Source: Chlorobium sp. (GTDB lineage Bacteria; Bacteroidota; Chlorobiia; Chlorobiales; Chlorobiaceae). From it: DNA of 64,000 bases. This document shows, one piece after another, positions 3,911 to 62,754 of the stretch. Below the pieces are notes generated by a model, which ran no database searches, was not told where the DNA came from, and was given only the letters and a program-made list of their open reading frames with translations. Location of the stretch: NCBI GenBank assembly GCA_005862225.1, contig SZXV01000013.1, positions 1-64,000 on the forward strand, in the 5' to 3' direction. A program made the position numbers and the translations under genes. Positions within the stretch are counted from its first letter, which is position 1. Every line of letters begins with the position of its first letter.

Positions 3911-5176
3911 ATGAGCGAGCTTCTCTTGATCAACATTACAGGCCCCGACAAACCTGGCCTGACCTCGAAAATAACCTCAATCCTTGCTGGCTATAAAGTG
4001 CCGGTGCTTGATATTGGTCAGGCGGTTATTCACAATCATCTGTCGCTGGGGATGTTGGTGGAGGTGCCGAAAGAGTCGGCCTCTTCGCCGGTGCTGAAGG
4101 ATCTGCTTTTCTGCGCTCATACGATCGGCATTCAGATCACCTTTACGCCGGTTACCGATACCGAATACAACGACTGGGTGCATGAGCAGGGCAAGCACCG
4201 TTATCTGCTCTCGCTGCTTGCGCGAAAGATTACCGCTGAGCAACTGGAGCGGGTGTCGTCGATCATCACCGGGCACAACCTCAATATTGAGACCATCAAT
4301 CGCCTCTCGGGTCGTATTCCTCTTGAAAACGAGAATGCTGGACACACAAAGGCCTGCGTGGAGTTTTCGATACGGGGCACGCTGCTGAGCGAAAACAGCT
4401 TCCGCGAACAGATGCTTGCCATTACCGATACGCTTGGCGTTGATATCGCGTTTCAGGAGGACAACATTTTCCGGCGCAATCGTCGTCTGGTGGTGTTTGA
4501 TATGGACTCTACCGTGATTACCTCTGAAGTGATTGATGAGCTTGCCATCGAGGCTGGCGTCGGCGCTGAGGTGGCGGCAATTACTGAACAGGCGATGCGT
4601 GGGGAAATCGACTTTACCGGCAGCCTTCAGCGGAGGGTCTCCCTGCTGAAAGGGCTTGATGAACATGTTCTCGAAAAAATTGCTCAACGCCTTCAATTGA
4701 CTGAAGGAGCTGAAACGCTTTTTCATAACCTCCACAACCTTGGCTTCAAGACCGCTATTCTCTCTGGTGGCTTTACCTATTTCGGCCACTATCTCCAGAA
4801 AAAGCTGAATATCGATTACATCTATGCCAACACGCTTGAAATTGACAATCACCGGTTAACCGGCAAGGTGATCGGGCCCATTGTTGATGGCAAAAGAAAG
4901 GCTGAACTGCTGGAGATTATTGCGAAAAAGGAGAACATCCGGCTGGAACAGACCATTGCCGTTGGTGATGGCGCCAATGACCTCCCGATGCTGGGCAAAG
5001 CGGGACTCGGCATCGCTTTCAGGGCAAAGCCCATTGTGAGGGAGAGCGCAAAGCAGGCTATCTCAACCCTCGGGCTTGATGCCATTCTCTATCTGATGGG
5101 ATTCAGGGATCGCGACGACCTTTCGGTCAGTCAACATACTCCACAAACTGCTCAAAATCCTCCTGACGTGGCATGA
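3911..5176 (+). CDS. serB: Phosphoserine phosphatase with N-terminal ACT domains
   Basis: 421 aa. Catalyses the last step of serine synthesis, O-phosphoserine to serine plus phosphate, in the cytoplasm. Residues 1-175 form one or two ACT-type regulatory domains ([20 protein letters not shown]). The HAD phosphatase part has motif I DMDSTVI at about 197 with the nucleophilic Asp, SGGFTYF as motif II, and [10 protein letters not shown] at about 352 as the Mg-binding motif. The frame is open for about 100 codons upstream, but that part overlaps the integrase remnant and has no homology, so I start at ATG 3911, where the ACT domain begins. The 3' end overlaps the convergent ferredoxin gene by 50 bp. 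Confidence 0.95.
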
Positions 5177-9145: not shown

Positions 9146-11032
9146 ATGACTGATACAAAACAGAAAACCAGACAGGTCAATGTGACCTCCAAAACCAGTG
9201 TCTCCGTGCTTTTTGCTGGAGATTCGGGAGACGGTATGCAATTGACCGGCACTCAATTTGCCAATACTGTTGCAATTCATGGCTCAGAACTTAATACGTT
9301 TCCAAATTTTCCTTCTGAAATAAGAGCCCCGGCAGGCACCATTGCCGGTGTTTCAGGGTTTCAGCTCCAGTTCAGCAGCAAGCCGGTCTATACGCCGGGT
9401 GCGCGATTTGATGTTATGGTCGCCATGAATTCCGCCGCACTGAAAGCAAATCTCAAAGACCTGCATCGTGGCGGCATCATAATTGCCGGCACTGAAGGAT
9501 TTGATGAAAAAAACCTCAAGCTTGCAGGCTATCCCGAAGGAGTGAATCCACTCGAAGACGGCTCTCTGAGCAACTATATTCTTTTTCCTGTCCCGATTCT
9601 GCAGCTTACCCGTGAAGCGCTGAAAGAGAGCGGCCTCAGCAGCAAGGAAATTGACCGCTGCAAAAACATGTTTGTTCTTGGCTTGCTCTATTGGCTCTAT
9701 ACACTTCCGCTTGAAGGAACGTTTGAAACGCTTCGCGCCAAATTCCAGAAAAATGTTCACATGGCCGAAGCGAACATCCGGGCTGTAAAGGCGGGCTATT
9801 TCTTTGGTGATGAAACTGAGCTTTTTGCAAACCTTGGCCGTTTTGATATTGCTCCGCAAAAACAGCATGGTGTCTATCGCAGGGTCACCGGAAATGAAGC
9901 GTGTGCCATAGCGCTGACCGCCGCATCGAAAAAGGCCGGTCTGAAACTGTTCCTTGGCTCATACCCTATCACACCGGCAACGGAGATTCTTCAGACACTG
10001 GCCAAAAAGAAAAAATATGGCGTCAAAACGTTTCAGGCTGAAGATGAAATTGCCGGCATTGTGAGCAGCATTGGCGCAGCTTACGGTGGCGCACTTGCCG
10101 CAACAAATACCTCTGGCCCCGGGCTTGCGTTGAAAACCGAAGCCCTTGGTCTGGCGGTTATTCTTGAACTGCCGCTGGTAGTGATCAATGTTCAGCGCGG
10201 TGGCCCGTCAACCGGTCTTCCAACAAAACCCGAGCAGTCTGATCTTTTCATGGCCATGTACGGCAGACATGGAGACGCCCCTCTCCCGGTTATTGCGGCC
10301 AGCTCTCCTGTTGATTGCTTCTATGCGACCTATGAAGCTGCAAGAATTGCTATTGAGCACATGACACCGGTGATCTGTTTAACTGACGGTTATCTGGCGC
10401 TCAGTTCAGAACCATGGAAAGTCGAAAGTCCGGATAACCTTGCAGACATCACGCCGCATTTTCACGCTCCAAGGCAACCTGAAGATCCGCCTTTCCTCCC
10501 TTACAAACGCGACGATCGTCAGGTTCGCGCATGGGCAATCCCCGGAACGAAAGGGCTTGAACACCGTATCGGCGGTCTCGAAAAGCAGAATGAAACCGGC
10601 AACGTCTCTCATGATCCGGATAATCATGAGCTGATGACCAGGCTTCGTGCACAGAAAATTAATCAGATTGCTGACAGCATTCCTCTTCAGACTATTGATA
10701 ATGGTTCGGAAAAAGGAGATTTACTTGTTCTTGGGTGGGGCTCTTCTTATGGCGCCATTAAAACCGCTGTTGAACAAGCCATTGAACAGGGTTACAATGT
10801 CGCTCATGCTCACTTGCGCTATATTCACCCGTTTCCGAAAAATCTCGGAGAAATTCTCGGCAATTATAAAAAAATCCTTATCCCCGAACTCAACAGCGGG
10901 CAGCTTATCCATATTATCCGCGACACTTTCCTGATTGCACCCGAGGGATTCTCCAAGGTACAGGGAGTACCATTCAATGAAATGGAAATACTGATAAAAA
11001 TCACTGACATCATAAAGGAGCTTCAATCATGA
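9146..11032 (+). CDS. korA: 2-oxoglutarate:ferredoxin oxidoreductase, fused gamma-alpha subunit
   Basis: 628 aa. With KorB it interconverts succinyl-CoA plus CO2 and 2-oxoglutarate using ferredoxin; in green sulfur bacteria it runs in the carboxylating direction of the reductive TCA cycle. Residues about 20-210 are the gamma domain ([14 protein letters not shown]). From about 250 the alpha domain begins ([17 protein letters not shown]...[12 protein letters not shown]), with [18 protein letters not shown]. The fused gamma-alpha layout is common for the two-subunit KOR type. The stop overlaps the korB start by 4 nt (ATGA), so translation is probably coupled. Confidence 0.95.
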
Positions 11033-56941: not shown

Positions 56942-57139
56942 ATGGAATCAACTATACCACAAGGGAAATATGTTATTAATACTCAAGGGAAAAAGACAGG
57001 TGTACTGTTATCCTTGAAACAATACCAGCAATTATTAGAGGATTTACATGATTTAACGATACTTGCATCTCGTCGGGATGAAAGCCCGGTGACGCTTGAA
57101 GAGATGAAACGCAGATTACAATTCCATGAGCGTGTATAA
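56942..57139 (+). CDS. Antitoxin of a RelE-type TA pair
   Basis: 65 aa. Basic and polar, with YVINTQGKKTGVLLSLKQYQ (a Phd/YefM-like start) and an acidic C-terminal helix (VTLEEMKRRLQFHE) that should cover the toxin. It overlaps the toxin start by 14 nt. AGGAGG lies 8 nt before the ATG. Confidence 0.85.
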   Translation: MESTIPQGKYVINTQGKKTGVLLSLKQYQQLLEDLHDLTILASRRDESPVTLEEMKRRLQFHERV

Positions 57140-57392
57140 CGTCATCCTCAAGCCATCTGTTGAAAAAGATTTACGAAAAATACCAGCGGTGATAGTTGAT
57201 CGTCTTTTTCAGCGAATAGAGGGGCTACAATCAGATCCATTTCCTCCACAATCTCTAAAACTTGCTGGAGGAGAGCTGTTTTATCGAATTCGGGTTGGTG
57301 ATTATCGCATTGTCTATCAAGTCGAAACAGAGGAAAAGCAGATTGTCATCCAGTATATCCGTCATCGCCGTGATGTCTATCGAGATTTGTAG
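57126..57392 (+). CDS. RelE/ParE-family toxin
   Basis: 88 aa. Typical RelE fold: YNVILKPSVEKDLRKIPA, then KLAGGELFYRIRVGDYRIVY and IRHRRDVYRDL. Likely a ribosome-dependent mRNA endonuclease or, as in ParE, a gyrase inhibitor; family membership alone does not decide. Confidence 0.9.
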   Translation: MSVYNVILKPSVEKDLRKIPAVIVDRLFQRIEGLQSDPFPPQSLKLAGGELFYRIRVGDYRIVYQVETEEKQIVIQYIRHRRDVYRDL

Positions 57393-59864: not shown

Positions 59865-61310
59865 ATGAGTAACTGTATCAGTTCCGGCTCACTCCACGAT
59901 CTGCTCGGCATTCCTCTCGATACTCCGCTGTCCATCGATGAGATGTGTGCCAGGATGAAACCGGTCATCTATCCCGCGCCTCAGCTCTCGCTTCGACTGG
60001 AGCAGTTCTGCCATGCGCTTGTTTCGGCAATGCAGTCGCTCGGCATAACAGCGCTTTCAAAAGAGGAGGCATCGGAAAGTGACGGACGGTTTGTTCCTGG
60101 AACAGTTATTCTCGCACCGGGTTATTTTCCTGACAACCTTCTGGCAATCAACCGCGTCACAACGCTTTACAACAATATCATTGTCGGCATATACGATGAA
60201 CCACCACCGCTCTCCTCCGAGTCGCTCCCCCAGGAGCGCCTTGACGCCATAGTCGGCAGGCTGGCCCGCGATATGGTTCATATCCTCATTTTTGTGACCG
60301 ACCATTCATGGACGATCTGCACCATGAACGGCGGGGTTGTGACGTTTAAGACACCTTATCCTGCTGTTGAGGATGTTCGTGGCACGCTTGTACCAAAACT
60401 CACGGCACAGGTCGTACCACCAAGAGCTGAAGATCTCGATATGGAATATGGTACATTGATGACGGGAACTCCGGAGTTTGAAGCTGTTGCGGCAGATTTC
60501 ATGCAGTGCAGCGCACTCTGGAGCAACAACGCCTCTCTGTTAACACACACCTCTACCGCTGGGCTCGACTACCGCAACGCATTTTACAAAAAAATTGTTG
60601 CACGCTATCTCGACCATCGAAGCGGAATGAGTTATGGCTTTTTTGCCCGTCAGTTGCCGGTTGCCGTTCGAGCAGCGCTCGTTGACCAAGAAAATGAATT
60701 GCTTCCCGTCCGTATAAAGGAGAGGCTTTTTTTTGTTCCTGTGCCTGAGATCAGCGTTATAACAACCAGGTCGGGATGCAGAAAAAATAATCTTGACCCG
60801 AAAAAAGATCTTGTGGAAATCGGGCTCAGGCTATGTCAGGGAAAAGGACGCGCCTACATGAAAACCCCGGCAGGACTTTCTCGGGAAAGTGTAGCCAAAC
60901 CATCATTTGACACCCTGACCATTCTGGCTCACGCTCTGGGTAATGCCCTGACGGCAAGCATCCTGATGACCCTCAGGCCGGAAGCACGCTTTCCTTACCA
61001 TCTGGCGCATTCCGGAGCATCGATCACGCACTGGCATGATTACCCTGACATCGAACAACTGCCCAAAGGATACCATCTCCACGGAGAAGACAATCCGCCC
61101 GTCGCCTGCTCAACACCCCAATCAGCGGCATACAGCCTCTTTGGCAAAATTACTGCGCTTGAACGTGCGCTCGACGAGGAAGTTGAATACTGCGGAGATG
61201 TCCATATTGAACCAAACCACGGCACCAATATTGTCGGGATACTTTCACTTGAAGAAACCGCAAAGCTTCTGAACCCTCTCTTCATCCCGGAGTTCATTGC
61301 TGAAGAGTAA
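59865..61310 (+). CDS. 481-aa protein of unknown function
   Basis: Starts at ATG 59865, 42 bp after nadK, so it probably belongs to the pyrE-tyrA-nadK transcript. No signal peptide and no membrane span. A conserved-looking core lies at about 85-120 (GTVILAPGYFPDNLLAINRV...IIVGIYDEPPP) and 390-450 (HLAHSGASITHWHDYPDIEQ; YHLHGEDNPP). No family is recognised; it may be specific to green sulfur bacteria. Confidence 0.7.
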   Translation: MSNCISSGSLHDLLGIPLDTPLSIDEMCARMKPVIYPAPQLSLRLEQFCHALVSAMQSLGITALSKEEASESDGRFVPGTVILAPGYFPDNLLAINRVTTLYNNIIVGIYDEPPPLSSESLPQERLDAIVGRLARDMVHILIFVTDHSWTICTMNGGVVTFKTPYPAVEDVRGTLVPKLTAQVVPPRAEDLDMEYGTLMTGTPEFEAVAADFMQCSALWSNNASLLTHTSTAGLDYRNAFYKKIVARYLDHRSGMSYGFFARQLPVAVRAALVDQENELLPVRIKERLFFVPVPEISVITTRSGCRKNNLDPKKDLVEIGLRLCQGKGRAYMKTPAGLSRESVAKPSFDTLTILAHALGNALTASILMTLRPEARFPYHLAHSGASITHWHDYPDIEQLPKGYHLHGEDNPPVACSTPQSAAYSLFGKITALERALDEEVEYCGDVHIEPNHGTNIVGILSLEETAKLLNPLFIPEFIAEE

Positions 61311-61333: not shown

Positions 61334-61885
61334 TTATTCCTCCACTTCAGCACGTTCAATATAAGGCCATTTCCCCTGTCGCAGCAGAATCATCTCTACC
61401 ATCTCCCTGATACACCCTTTTCCGCCTTCATACCCTGCAATATAGCCAACCCGGTTTCTGAGATAATCAGCTCCGTCAATGGCGGTTGCAGGTAAGCCTA
61501 CTCGTGCAAGCACCTCAACATCTCCGATATCATCGCCAATATAGGCGCACTCATCATCGGCAAGATCGTGCCGCTGACAGAAGGCTTCATAAGAGTAGAG
61601 CAGATTTTCTCCATTGAGATAAAGGTCATGCACGCCGAGCGCTTCAAGCAAAGGACGGTACCCTTCTGCATCCCTTGCCGACACAACAGCAACAAGAATA
61701 CCCTGTTTCAGGGCCTCTTTTATGGCGACGGCATCTCTGACCGAAATTGAACACATTTCTCCGCCGTTGCAGTCAAAGGTAATCCTGCTGCCATTCAGCA
61801 CACCGTCAACCGGAAACACAAGCGCACGAACCACCTGAAGCGCCTGATCAATTCGTGATGATGGATCAGCCTGCGAAGGCTGCAT
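61334..61885 (-). CDS. kdsC: KdsC-like HAD protein lacking the nucleophilic Asp
   Basis: 183 aa from ATG 61885; the longer frame to 61951 overlaps kdsA and is not needed. In KdsC the motif I is DxDGV; here it reads F24-P25-V26-D27-G28-V29, so the nucleophile is Pro (CCG at 61811-61813). The general-acid Asp (D27), motif II (VAVVSARD) and motif IV (YIGDDIGDVEVL) are kept, and GGKGCIREMVEMIL resembles the normal tail. It follows kdsA by 38 bp on the same strand. Such a change should abolish phosphatase chemistry, so it may be inactive, regulatory or a partner; another HAD may do the reaction. Confidence 0.8.
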   Translation of the reverse strand: MQPSQADPSSRIDQALQVVRALVFPVDGVLNGSRITFDCNGGEMCSISVRDAVAIKEALKQGILVAVVSARDAEGYRPLLEALGVHDLYLNGENLLYSYEAFCQRHDLADDECAYIGDDIGDVEVLARVGLPATAIDGADYLRNRVGYIAGYEGGKGCIREMVEMILLRQGKWPYIERAEVEE

Positions 61886-61923
61886 TCCGAAATATTGAAA
61901 CCCTTCCAAGAGCGTATATTGTT

Positions 61924-62754
61924 TTAGAGTGAATGAAGAGCGTGCACACACCGGTAAAGATGGAGCAGTTGCTTGACCATTATCCTGAAATCCGGCAGCG
62001 CCACCTGAGTGGCGGCATCCGACAGGGCTGTTGACGGATTGGGATGGATCTCAAAAAAAAGTCCATCAACACCGGCAGCAACTGCTGCGCGGGCAAGTGG
62101 CATTACATACTGGCGTTCCCCGCCGGAAATTCCCTGATCGGCCCCGGGAAGCTGGAGACTGTGCGTGGCATCATAGAGCACCGGATATCCCGATTCAGCC
62201 ATTTTGGCAAGCCCCCTGAAATCGACAACAAGATTATGATAGCCAAAACTTGAGCCCCGCTCAGTCAGCATAACCCGGCTGTTACCGGTTCGGGCAACTT
62301 TGGCGGCAGCAAGCACCATATCTTCAGGAGCCATGAACTGCCCTTTCTTGATATTGACCGCCAGACCGCTCTCTCCGGCGGCAACCAGCAACTCCGTTTG
62401 ACGACAGAGAAATGCGGGTATCTGCAACACGTCCACATAACGGGCAGCAAGAGTCACCTCTTTTGTTTCGTGTACATCGGTAATAACCGGCATATTAAAC
62501 GTCTGGCGAATCTCGGCAAGCACTTCGAGCGCCTCAACGTCACCGATGCCAGTAAACGAGGAGGCCGAAGTGCGATTGGCTTTGCGATAGGAACCTTTGA
62601 AAATAAAACGAACTCCCTCCTGCTGACTGATGCTCTGCAGCTCTTCGGCAGTTTCAAAGGCCATGGCGCGACTTTCGATCAGACAGGGTCCCGCAATAAA
62701 AAGCGGAGTGGTGTCATCAGGAACTGAGAGTGGACCAATTGAGAACTTTTGCAC
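61924..62754 (-). CDS. kdsA: 3-deoxy-D-manno-octulosonate 8-phosphate synthase
   Basis: 276 aa. Joins arabinose 5-phosphate and PEP to give Kdo-8-phosphate for lipid A. Segments such as [45 protein letters not shown] and [20 protein letters not shown] are typical. Shows that the organism makes lipopolysaccharide. Confidence 0.96.

Follow-up and report, generated by a model that had tools for sequence, protein, structure and literature searches.

What does a KdsC-like protein do when it is encoded directly behind the gene for Kdo-8-phosphate synthase and carries proline where active KdsC carries its nucleophilic aspartate, and which enzyme then performs the phosphatase step of Kdo synthesis? 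HAD phosphatases act through a phospho-aspartyl intermediate formed on that residue. The locus lies in a 64,000-nucleotide stretch of contig SZXV01000013.1 from Chlorobium sp., the whole of which is called the window here, and comprises the following features.

61334..61909, minus strand: pseudo-kdsC gene, 191 amino acids, stop codon included in the coordinates, start revised to TTG
61909..61907, minus strand: the revised start codon, TTG, which gives the 191-residue form
61813..61811, minus strand: proline codon CCG, residue 25 of the ATG reading, where motif I of active KdsC has its nucleophilic Asp
61649..61651, minus strand: leucine codon of residue 79, which corresponds to Arg64 of KDN-9-phosphate phosphatase in a comparison with 38 homologues
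61601..61603, minus strand: leucine codon where motif III of active KdsC has Lys
61529..61534, minus strand: Asp-Asp pair of motif IV (GDD), retained as an acidic pair
61924..62754, minus strand: kdsA, Kdo-8-phosphate synthase (metal-type, AGPC), above cut-off with NF003543/TIGR01362

A first-pass annotation had placed the pseudo-kdsC gene at 61334-61885 with no strand given. The gene is real and lies on the minus strand; its start had to be corrected. Read from the ATG (61885..61334, minus), it yields 183 residues containing RALVFPVDGVLNG. Judging from related genes, the true start is probably the TTG at 61909..61907 and not this downstream ATG: 79 of the 80 readable Chlorobiaceae genes carry TTG (76) or GTG (3) at this codon, the residues past the TTG start (FQYFGM) are conserved in Chlorobiaceae, and one orthologue (L046) is without an ATG at the downstream position. 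With the KdsC subfamily model TIGR01670 (YrbI; cut-off 106.95) the product reaches 113.6 bits, and with the KdsC equivalog model NF007019 it reaches 111.5 bits, far under the cut-off of 208. Because it passes the KdsC profile cut-off, automatic annotation calls the gene Kdo-8-phosphate phosphatase, which is very probably wrong. An AlphaFold model built from 41 aligned relatives (mean pLDDT 91) adopts the KdsC fold of a capless C0 HAD; its closest PDB structure is E. coli KdsC (2r8z; rmsd 1.1 Å over 164 columns), and its top PDB matches are all KdsC. By sequence and predicted fold, the window protein is a descendant of KdsC. In nearly every Chlorobiaceae locus, pseudo-kdsC converges on a gene for a 481-residue protein with no Pfam match (window 59865-61310, plus strand), and an 88-residue protein encoded at 57126-57392 (plus strand) has, by eye, the look of a RelE-type toxin.

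Motif I of the window protein reads F-P-V-D-G-V, as against D-V-D-G-V in active KdsC, so that proline occupies the first position of the DxD motif. Our survey covered 98 genomes of the order, 95 of which hold an orthologue, 94 in the Chlorobiaceae, Chloroherpetonaceae-type (f2) and Thermochlorobacteriaceae-type (f3) groups and one in the MAG ES-bin-17. All 62 readable genes of the same genus have Pro at the nucleophile site, written with four different codons (CCG 35, CCC 20, CCT 5, CCA 2). Among 20 genes of the sister genus (Chlorobaculum-type) the site is Ser in 14, Pro in 5 and Ala in 1; it is Thr in both f2 genes, and Asn (4), Ser (3), Thr (1) or Val (1) in f3. Altogether, 93 of the 94 readable genes of the order are non-Asp (P, S, A, T, N or V), 31 of them beyond the 62 of the same genus, and Asp is kept only in ES-bin-17 (G276, L088), a deep MAG. 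A second collection of 80 loci gave the same picture, as its Chlorobiales genes all lack Asp except that of ES-bin-17 and its readable genes from other phyla carry Asp (L217 among those checked). All 94 readable genes retain the second Asp of motif I. The loss of the nucleophile and its spread across the order are certain.

The proline that the first-pass annotation had pointed out thus stands, with its CCG codon, and extends through the genus. A sequencing slip was rejected on the strength of the 62 genomes and four codons; the argument first offered against it, that Asp to Pro needs two base changes, is not needed, since the codons found at the site (GAT, AAT, AGC, ACC, TCC, CCC, GCG) can be linked in a chain of single-base steps. 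With the N, T, S, P and A codons one base apart, Pro can be reached from Asp stepwise. Asp in other Chlorobi, which was to count against the whole idea, turned up in one MAG only, and the alignment across Chlorobi that had been proposed as a check shows the loss of Asp to be general, although Pro itself is not universal and gives way elsewhere to Ser, Ala, Thr, Asn or Val. A single loss of Asp and repeated losses are not separated by the tree, as the support of the ES-bin-17 branch is 78/0.

The first-pass annotation further held the remaining HAD motifs to be kept, which proved wrong for the Chlorobiaceae. The motif III Lys, Leu in the window protein, is absent from 83/83 Chlorobiaceae sequences, where the site holds Leu, Pro, Phe, Val or Arg, and is retained in f2, f3 and ES-bin-17. 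A second loss concerns the position of Arg64 of KDN-9-phosphate phosphatase, a residue that we take to be contributed by the neighbouring subunit and to contact the sugar. The 38 Asp-bearing homologues compared (15 from Bacteroidota, 18 second paralogues and 5 from the PDB) all have Arg there, as does f3; ES-bin-17 has Trp, and the 30 Chlorobiaceae rows checked all have a hydrophobic residue. What the window genome does retain is the motif II Ser, which is Ala in 14/20 of the Chlorobaculum-type genes, and the motif IV Asps, the first of which is kept in all readable orthologues; a GGxGxxRE segment at the C-terminus is conserved in all copies. Since Lys and Arg are still found in f3 and gone in Chlorobiaceae, while the nucleophile is gone in the whole group, the losses were stepwise, with the nucleophile lost first and group-wide and the substrate-binding residues later, in Chlorobiaceae.

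With nucleophile, Lys and Arg lost, no phospho-aspartyl intermediate is expected. The loss of phosphatase activity is well supported and very probable, and by the known mechanism the window protein, as its residues indicate, cannot be an active KdsC. With two catalytic residues (motif I Asp and motif III Lys) missing, it should not be counted among the KdsC phosphatases and would at most be a pseudophosphatase-like subunit. Two other functions may be considered for such an active site. The protein could employ a different catalysis, for example with the second Asp as acid/base, or retain weak residual hydrolysis, and the invariance of that Asp together with an enzyme-like low dN/dS (see below) would fit this. 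However, we know of no HAD that catalyses phosphoryl transfer without the nucleophilic Asp, the nucleophile position varies freely outside the genus of the window, and the Lys is lost too, all of which makes this very improbable. Alternatively, it could be a sensor that binds Kdo-8-P, Kdo or phosphate without hydrolysis and regulates the pathway; the same-genus set keeps the general-acid Asp, the motif II Ser and the motif IV Asps, and the Thermochlorobacteriaceae still have Lys and Arg. This reading is improbable in view of the complete absence of Lys and the Arg64 equivalent from the Chlorobiaceae sequences compared and of the Ser to Ala replacement in most Chlorobaculum-type genes. Both ideas are weakened by the fact that pocket residues keep being lost in Chlorobiaceae. 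For the same reason, the Kdo-8-P binding suggested at first pass finds no favour here, as the lost Lys and Arg speak against binding in the usual pocket in this family.

Despite these losses, the gene is not in decay. Pairwise dN/dS values, calculated by NG86 from pairs with dS of 0.1-0.9, have a median of 0.103 for pseudo-kdsC (219 pairs), as compared with 0.121 for the intact paralogue described below and 0.072 for kdsA. Across the family, conservation reaches 98% or more in 43 of the 183 columns, and the reading frame is intact in all genomes checked; the one seemingly broken copy (G149) was dismissed as such, its apparent stops sitting upstream of a GTG start. Chance survival, or service as a spacer downstream of kdsA, might be suspected from the gene's faster evolution relative to kdsA and from the further motifs lost in Chlorobiaceae. 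Given the open frames, the conserved columns and a dN/dS of about 0.1, this is hardly credible, and a pseudogene was rejected; for the clade, the selection estimates refute decay unless they are a saturation artefact. Its dN/dS being no higher than that of the intact paralogue, the product is better described as a conserved pseudophosphatase, and it shows the three marks of a HAD pseudophosphatase, namely a HAD fold (as predicted), a lost nucleophile and purifying selection. It is almost certainly a functional protein under selection. The selection for a non-hydrolytic role that had been proposed for it is likely, with the proline real and purifying selection evident.

The genomic neighbourhood suggests where such a role may lie. 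In the window, kdsA is directly upstream, with 14 nt from its stop to the TTG start, and the same arrangement on the same strand is seen at 82/83 Chlorobiaceae loci, the remaining one being at a contig edge, as well as at both Chloroherpetonaceae-type loci and in four Thermochlorobacteriaceae genomes. AGPC is present in 26/26 KdsA rows. In the KdsA tree, the dead protein follows KdsA in most lineages. The exceptions are two f3 genera (g4 and g8), in which KdsA is non-adjacent and of another lineage and the dead protein is still kept, so that the tree does not support a strict dependence on KdsA. The order has two KdsA lineages, one linked to pseudo-kdsC and one unlinked (g4, g8 and ES-bin-17; L148, L149 and L150 against L085-L094). 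A near-complete genome of the sister genus (G114, L167) is without kdsA, pseudo-kdsC and waaA and has retained kdsB together with the NeuB-like gene and with the second HAD introduced below, a pattern that possibly reflects Kdo loss or assembly gaps. The conserved gene linkage and the joint absence of both genes in G114 favour a partnership of pseudo-KdsC with KdsA, which we regard as plausible, if somewhat short of an even chance. In one MAG (G330, L023:622-2058), a frameshift at the kdsA 3' end puts KdsA and pseudo-KdsC into a single frame of 478 aa, which may be a genuine fusion or a fault in the assembly. A literature search on a KdsC-KdsA complex returned nothing relevant.

If the KdsA-linked protein is inactive, the phosphatase step needs another catalyst. 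KdsB and WaaA were found in this genome and in five of the others searched. In the genome that we take to be that of Chlorobaculum tepidum (G106), the KdsA-linked KdsC has Ser at the nucleophile site. Kdo has been measured by HPLC in the LPS of C. tepidum (PMC12285230). Kdo is therefore made although the KdsA-linked KdsC should be dead, and another enzyme must do the phosphatase step, as had been anticipated. A profile search for KdsC-family genes in the window genome found two above cut-off and no third, and thus one candidate apart from the window gene. The features concerned are these.

C9:53556-54071 (L002/L142), minus strand: second KdsC-family HAD gene, unlinked, product 29% identical to the window protein
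L142:8600-9469 and 9554-10117, both minus strand: NeuB-family synthase gene and KDN-9-phosphate phosphatase-like HAD gene, a pair near universal in the order

The second HAD carries the motifs DNDGVFTD, MTGE, GVKDKL and YIGDDVND, and its active site (D-x-D, T/S, K, GDD) is intact in 48/48 copies read. It occurs in 93/98 genomes of the order, which bears out the expectation that a second HAD of KdsC type would be found; the five genomes without it are ES-bin-17 (97% complete) and four of 77-91% completeness. The tree unites these proteins in a single clade (100/100) close to KDN-9-phosphate phosphatase, a likeness that weighs against Kdo-8-P as their substrate. The gene adjoins, in most genomes, that for a 289-aa NeuB-family synthase, which is 73-95% identical across the order, more conserved than KdsA, and has the Pfam NeuB domain alone, with no SAF domain match. 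ES-bin-17, the lone lineage with an intact KdsC, is without both the second HAD and the NeuB-like synthase. Such a distribution is consistent with the phosphatase step having been handed over, on the evidence of that one MAG; G299 (91% complete) has the Pro form and no second-HAD match. From distribution and motifs, we would give about an even chance that the second HAD supplies the Kdo-8-phosphate phosphatase. Elsewhere in the window, a weak KdsC-profile match (4892-5047, plus strand; 16.8 bits) lies inside a 524-aa open frame and presumably belongs to another HAD protein.

The second HAD also offers an alternative partner. KdsC enzymes are tetramers whose sites are completed by neighbouring subunits, and the dead protein could be a pseudo-subunit that tunes the active one in mixed tetramers. 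The two proteins co-occur in about 90 genomes, the intact-KdsC lineage lacks the second HAD, and the C-terminal GGxGxxRE segment is conserved in all copies of the dead protein. On the other hand, the two are only 29% identical, their genes are unlinked, and the Arg that would reach into a neighbouring site is lost in Chlorobiaceae. We consider this, the main rival, unlikely.

We therefore return to the partnership with KdsA and propose the following course of events. The Kdo-8-phosphate phosphatase of the Chlorobiales ancestor lost its catalytic Asp early, and the dead protein was retained by purifying selection. In the Chlorobiaceae, the Lys of motif III and the Arg of the neighbouring subunit went as well, and with them, probably, Kdo-8-P binding in the usual mode. 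Made beside KdsA, pseudo-KdsC would most likely scaffold or regulate KdsA, or an assembly of KdsA with a phosphatase, as a subunit with no catalysis of its own, and the phosphatase step would most likely fall to the intact KdsC-type HAD beside the NeuB-like synthase. As a whole, the reading of a KdsC-derived pseudophosphatase at the side of KdsA, with the second HAD as the hydrolysing enzyme, seems to us as apt to be right as wrong. Its stricter form, a free-standing pseudophosphatase subunit of Kdo-8-phosphate synthase with the phosphatase step taken over by a nonulosonate-type HAD throughout the order, is rather doubtful. If true, it would be a clean, datable case of an enzyme turning into a pseudoenzyme inside its own operon, in which a pathway enzyme became, order-wide, the regulator or scaffold of the enzyme preceding it. 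The second HAD is a strong candidate for the true Kdo phosphatase of green sulfur bacteria.

Literature searches gave no match for a KdsC pseudoenzyme and, for kdsC with Chlorobium, only unrelated genome work. The window protein resembles KdsC/YrbI (HAD subclass C0; E. coli 2r8e, B. thetaiotaomicron 4hgn) in its family HMM score above cut-off, kdsA adjacency, predicted fold, C-terminal GGxGxxRE and RD ahead of the DG pocket helix. It differs in lacking the nucleophilic Asp and, in its own family, the motif III Lys and the Arg64 equivalent. KDN-9-phosphate phosphatase (BT1713, 3e81; NF058599) is resembled not by the window protein but by the second paralogue, which retains the equivalents of Glu56 and Lys67 and has a NeuB-like neighbour; unlike that family, however, the paralogue scores below the curated cut-off (143 bits with NF058599, its best equivalog, against 180). 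For the window protein, the nearest precedent comes from vertebrates, whose CMP-sialic acid synthetase has a C-terminal HAD domain (3ewi) that is likewise KdsC-like with its nucleophile lost (motif I CNIDGCLTNG, with Asn at the nucleophile position) and whose motif II S-E-R recurs in most Chlorobium copies. According to the account of Oschlies et al. (2009) given in PMC8636478, that domain has no phosphatase activity and forms the tetramer interface. If the partner role holds, pseudo-KdsC would be its bacterial, free-standing counterpart. Whereas the vertebrate HAD is fused to a sugar-activating enzyme, the window protein stands free, beside a sugar-phosphate synthase.
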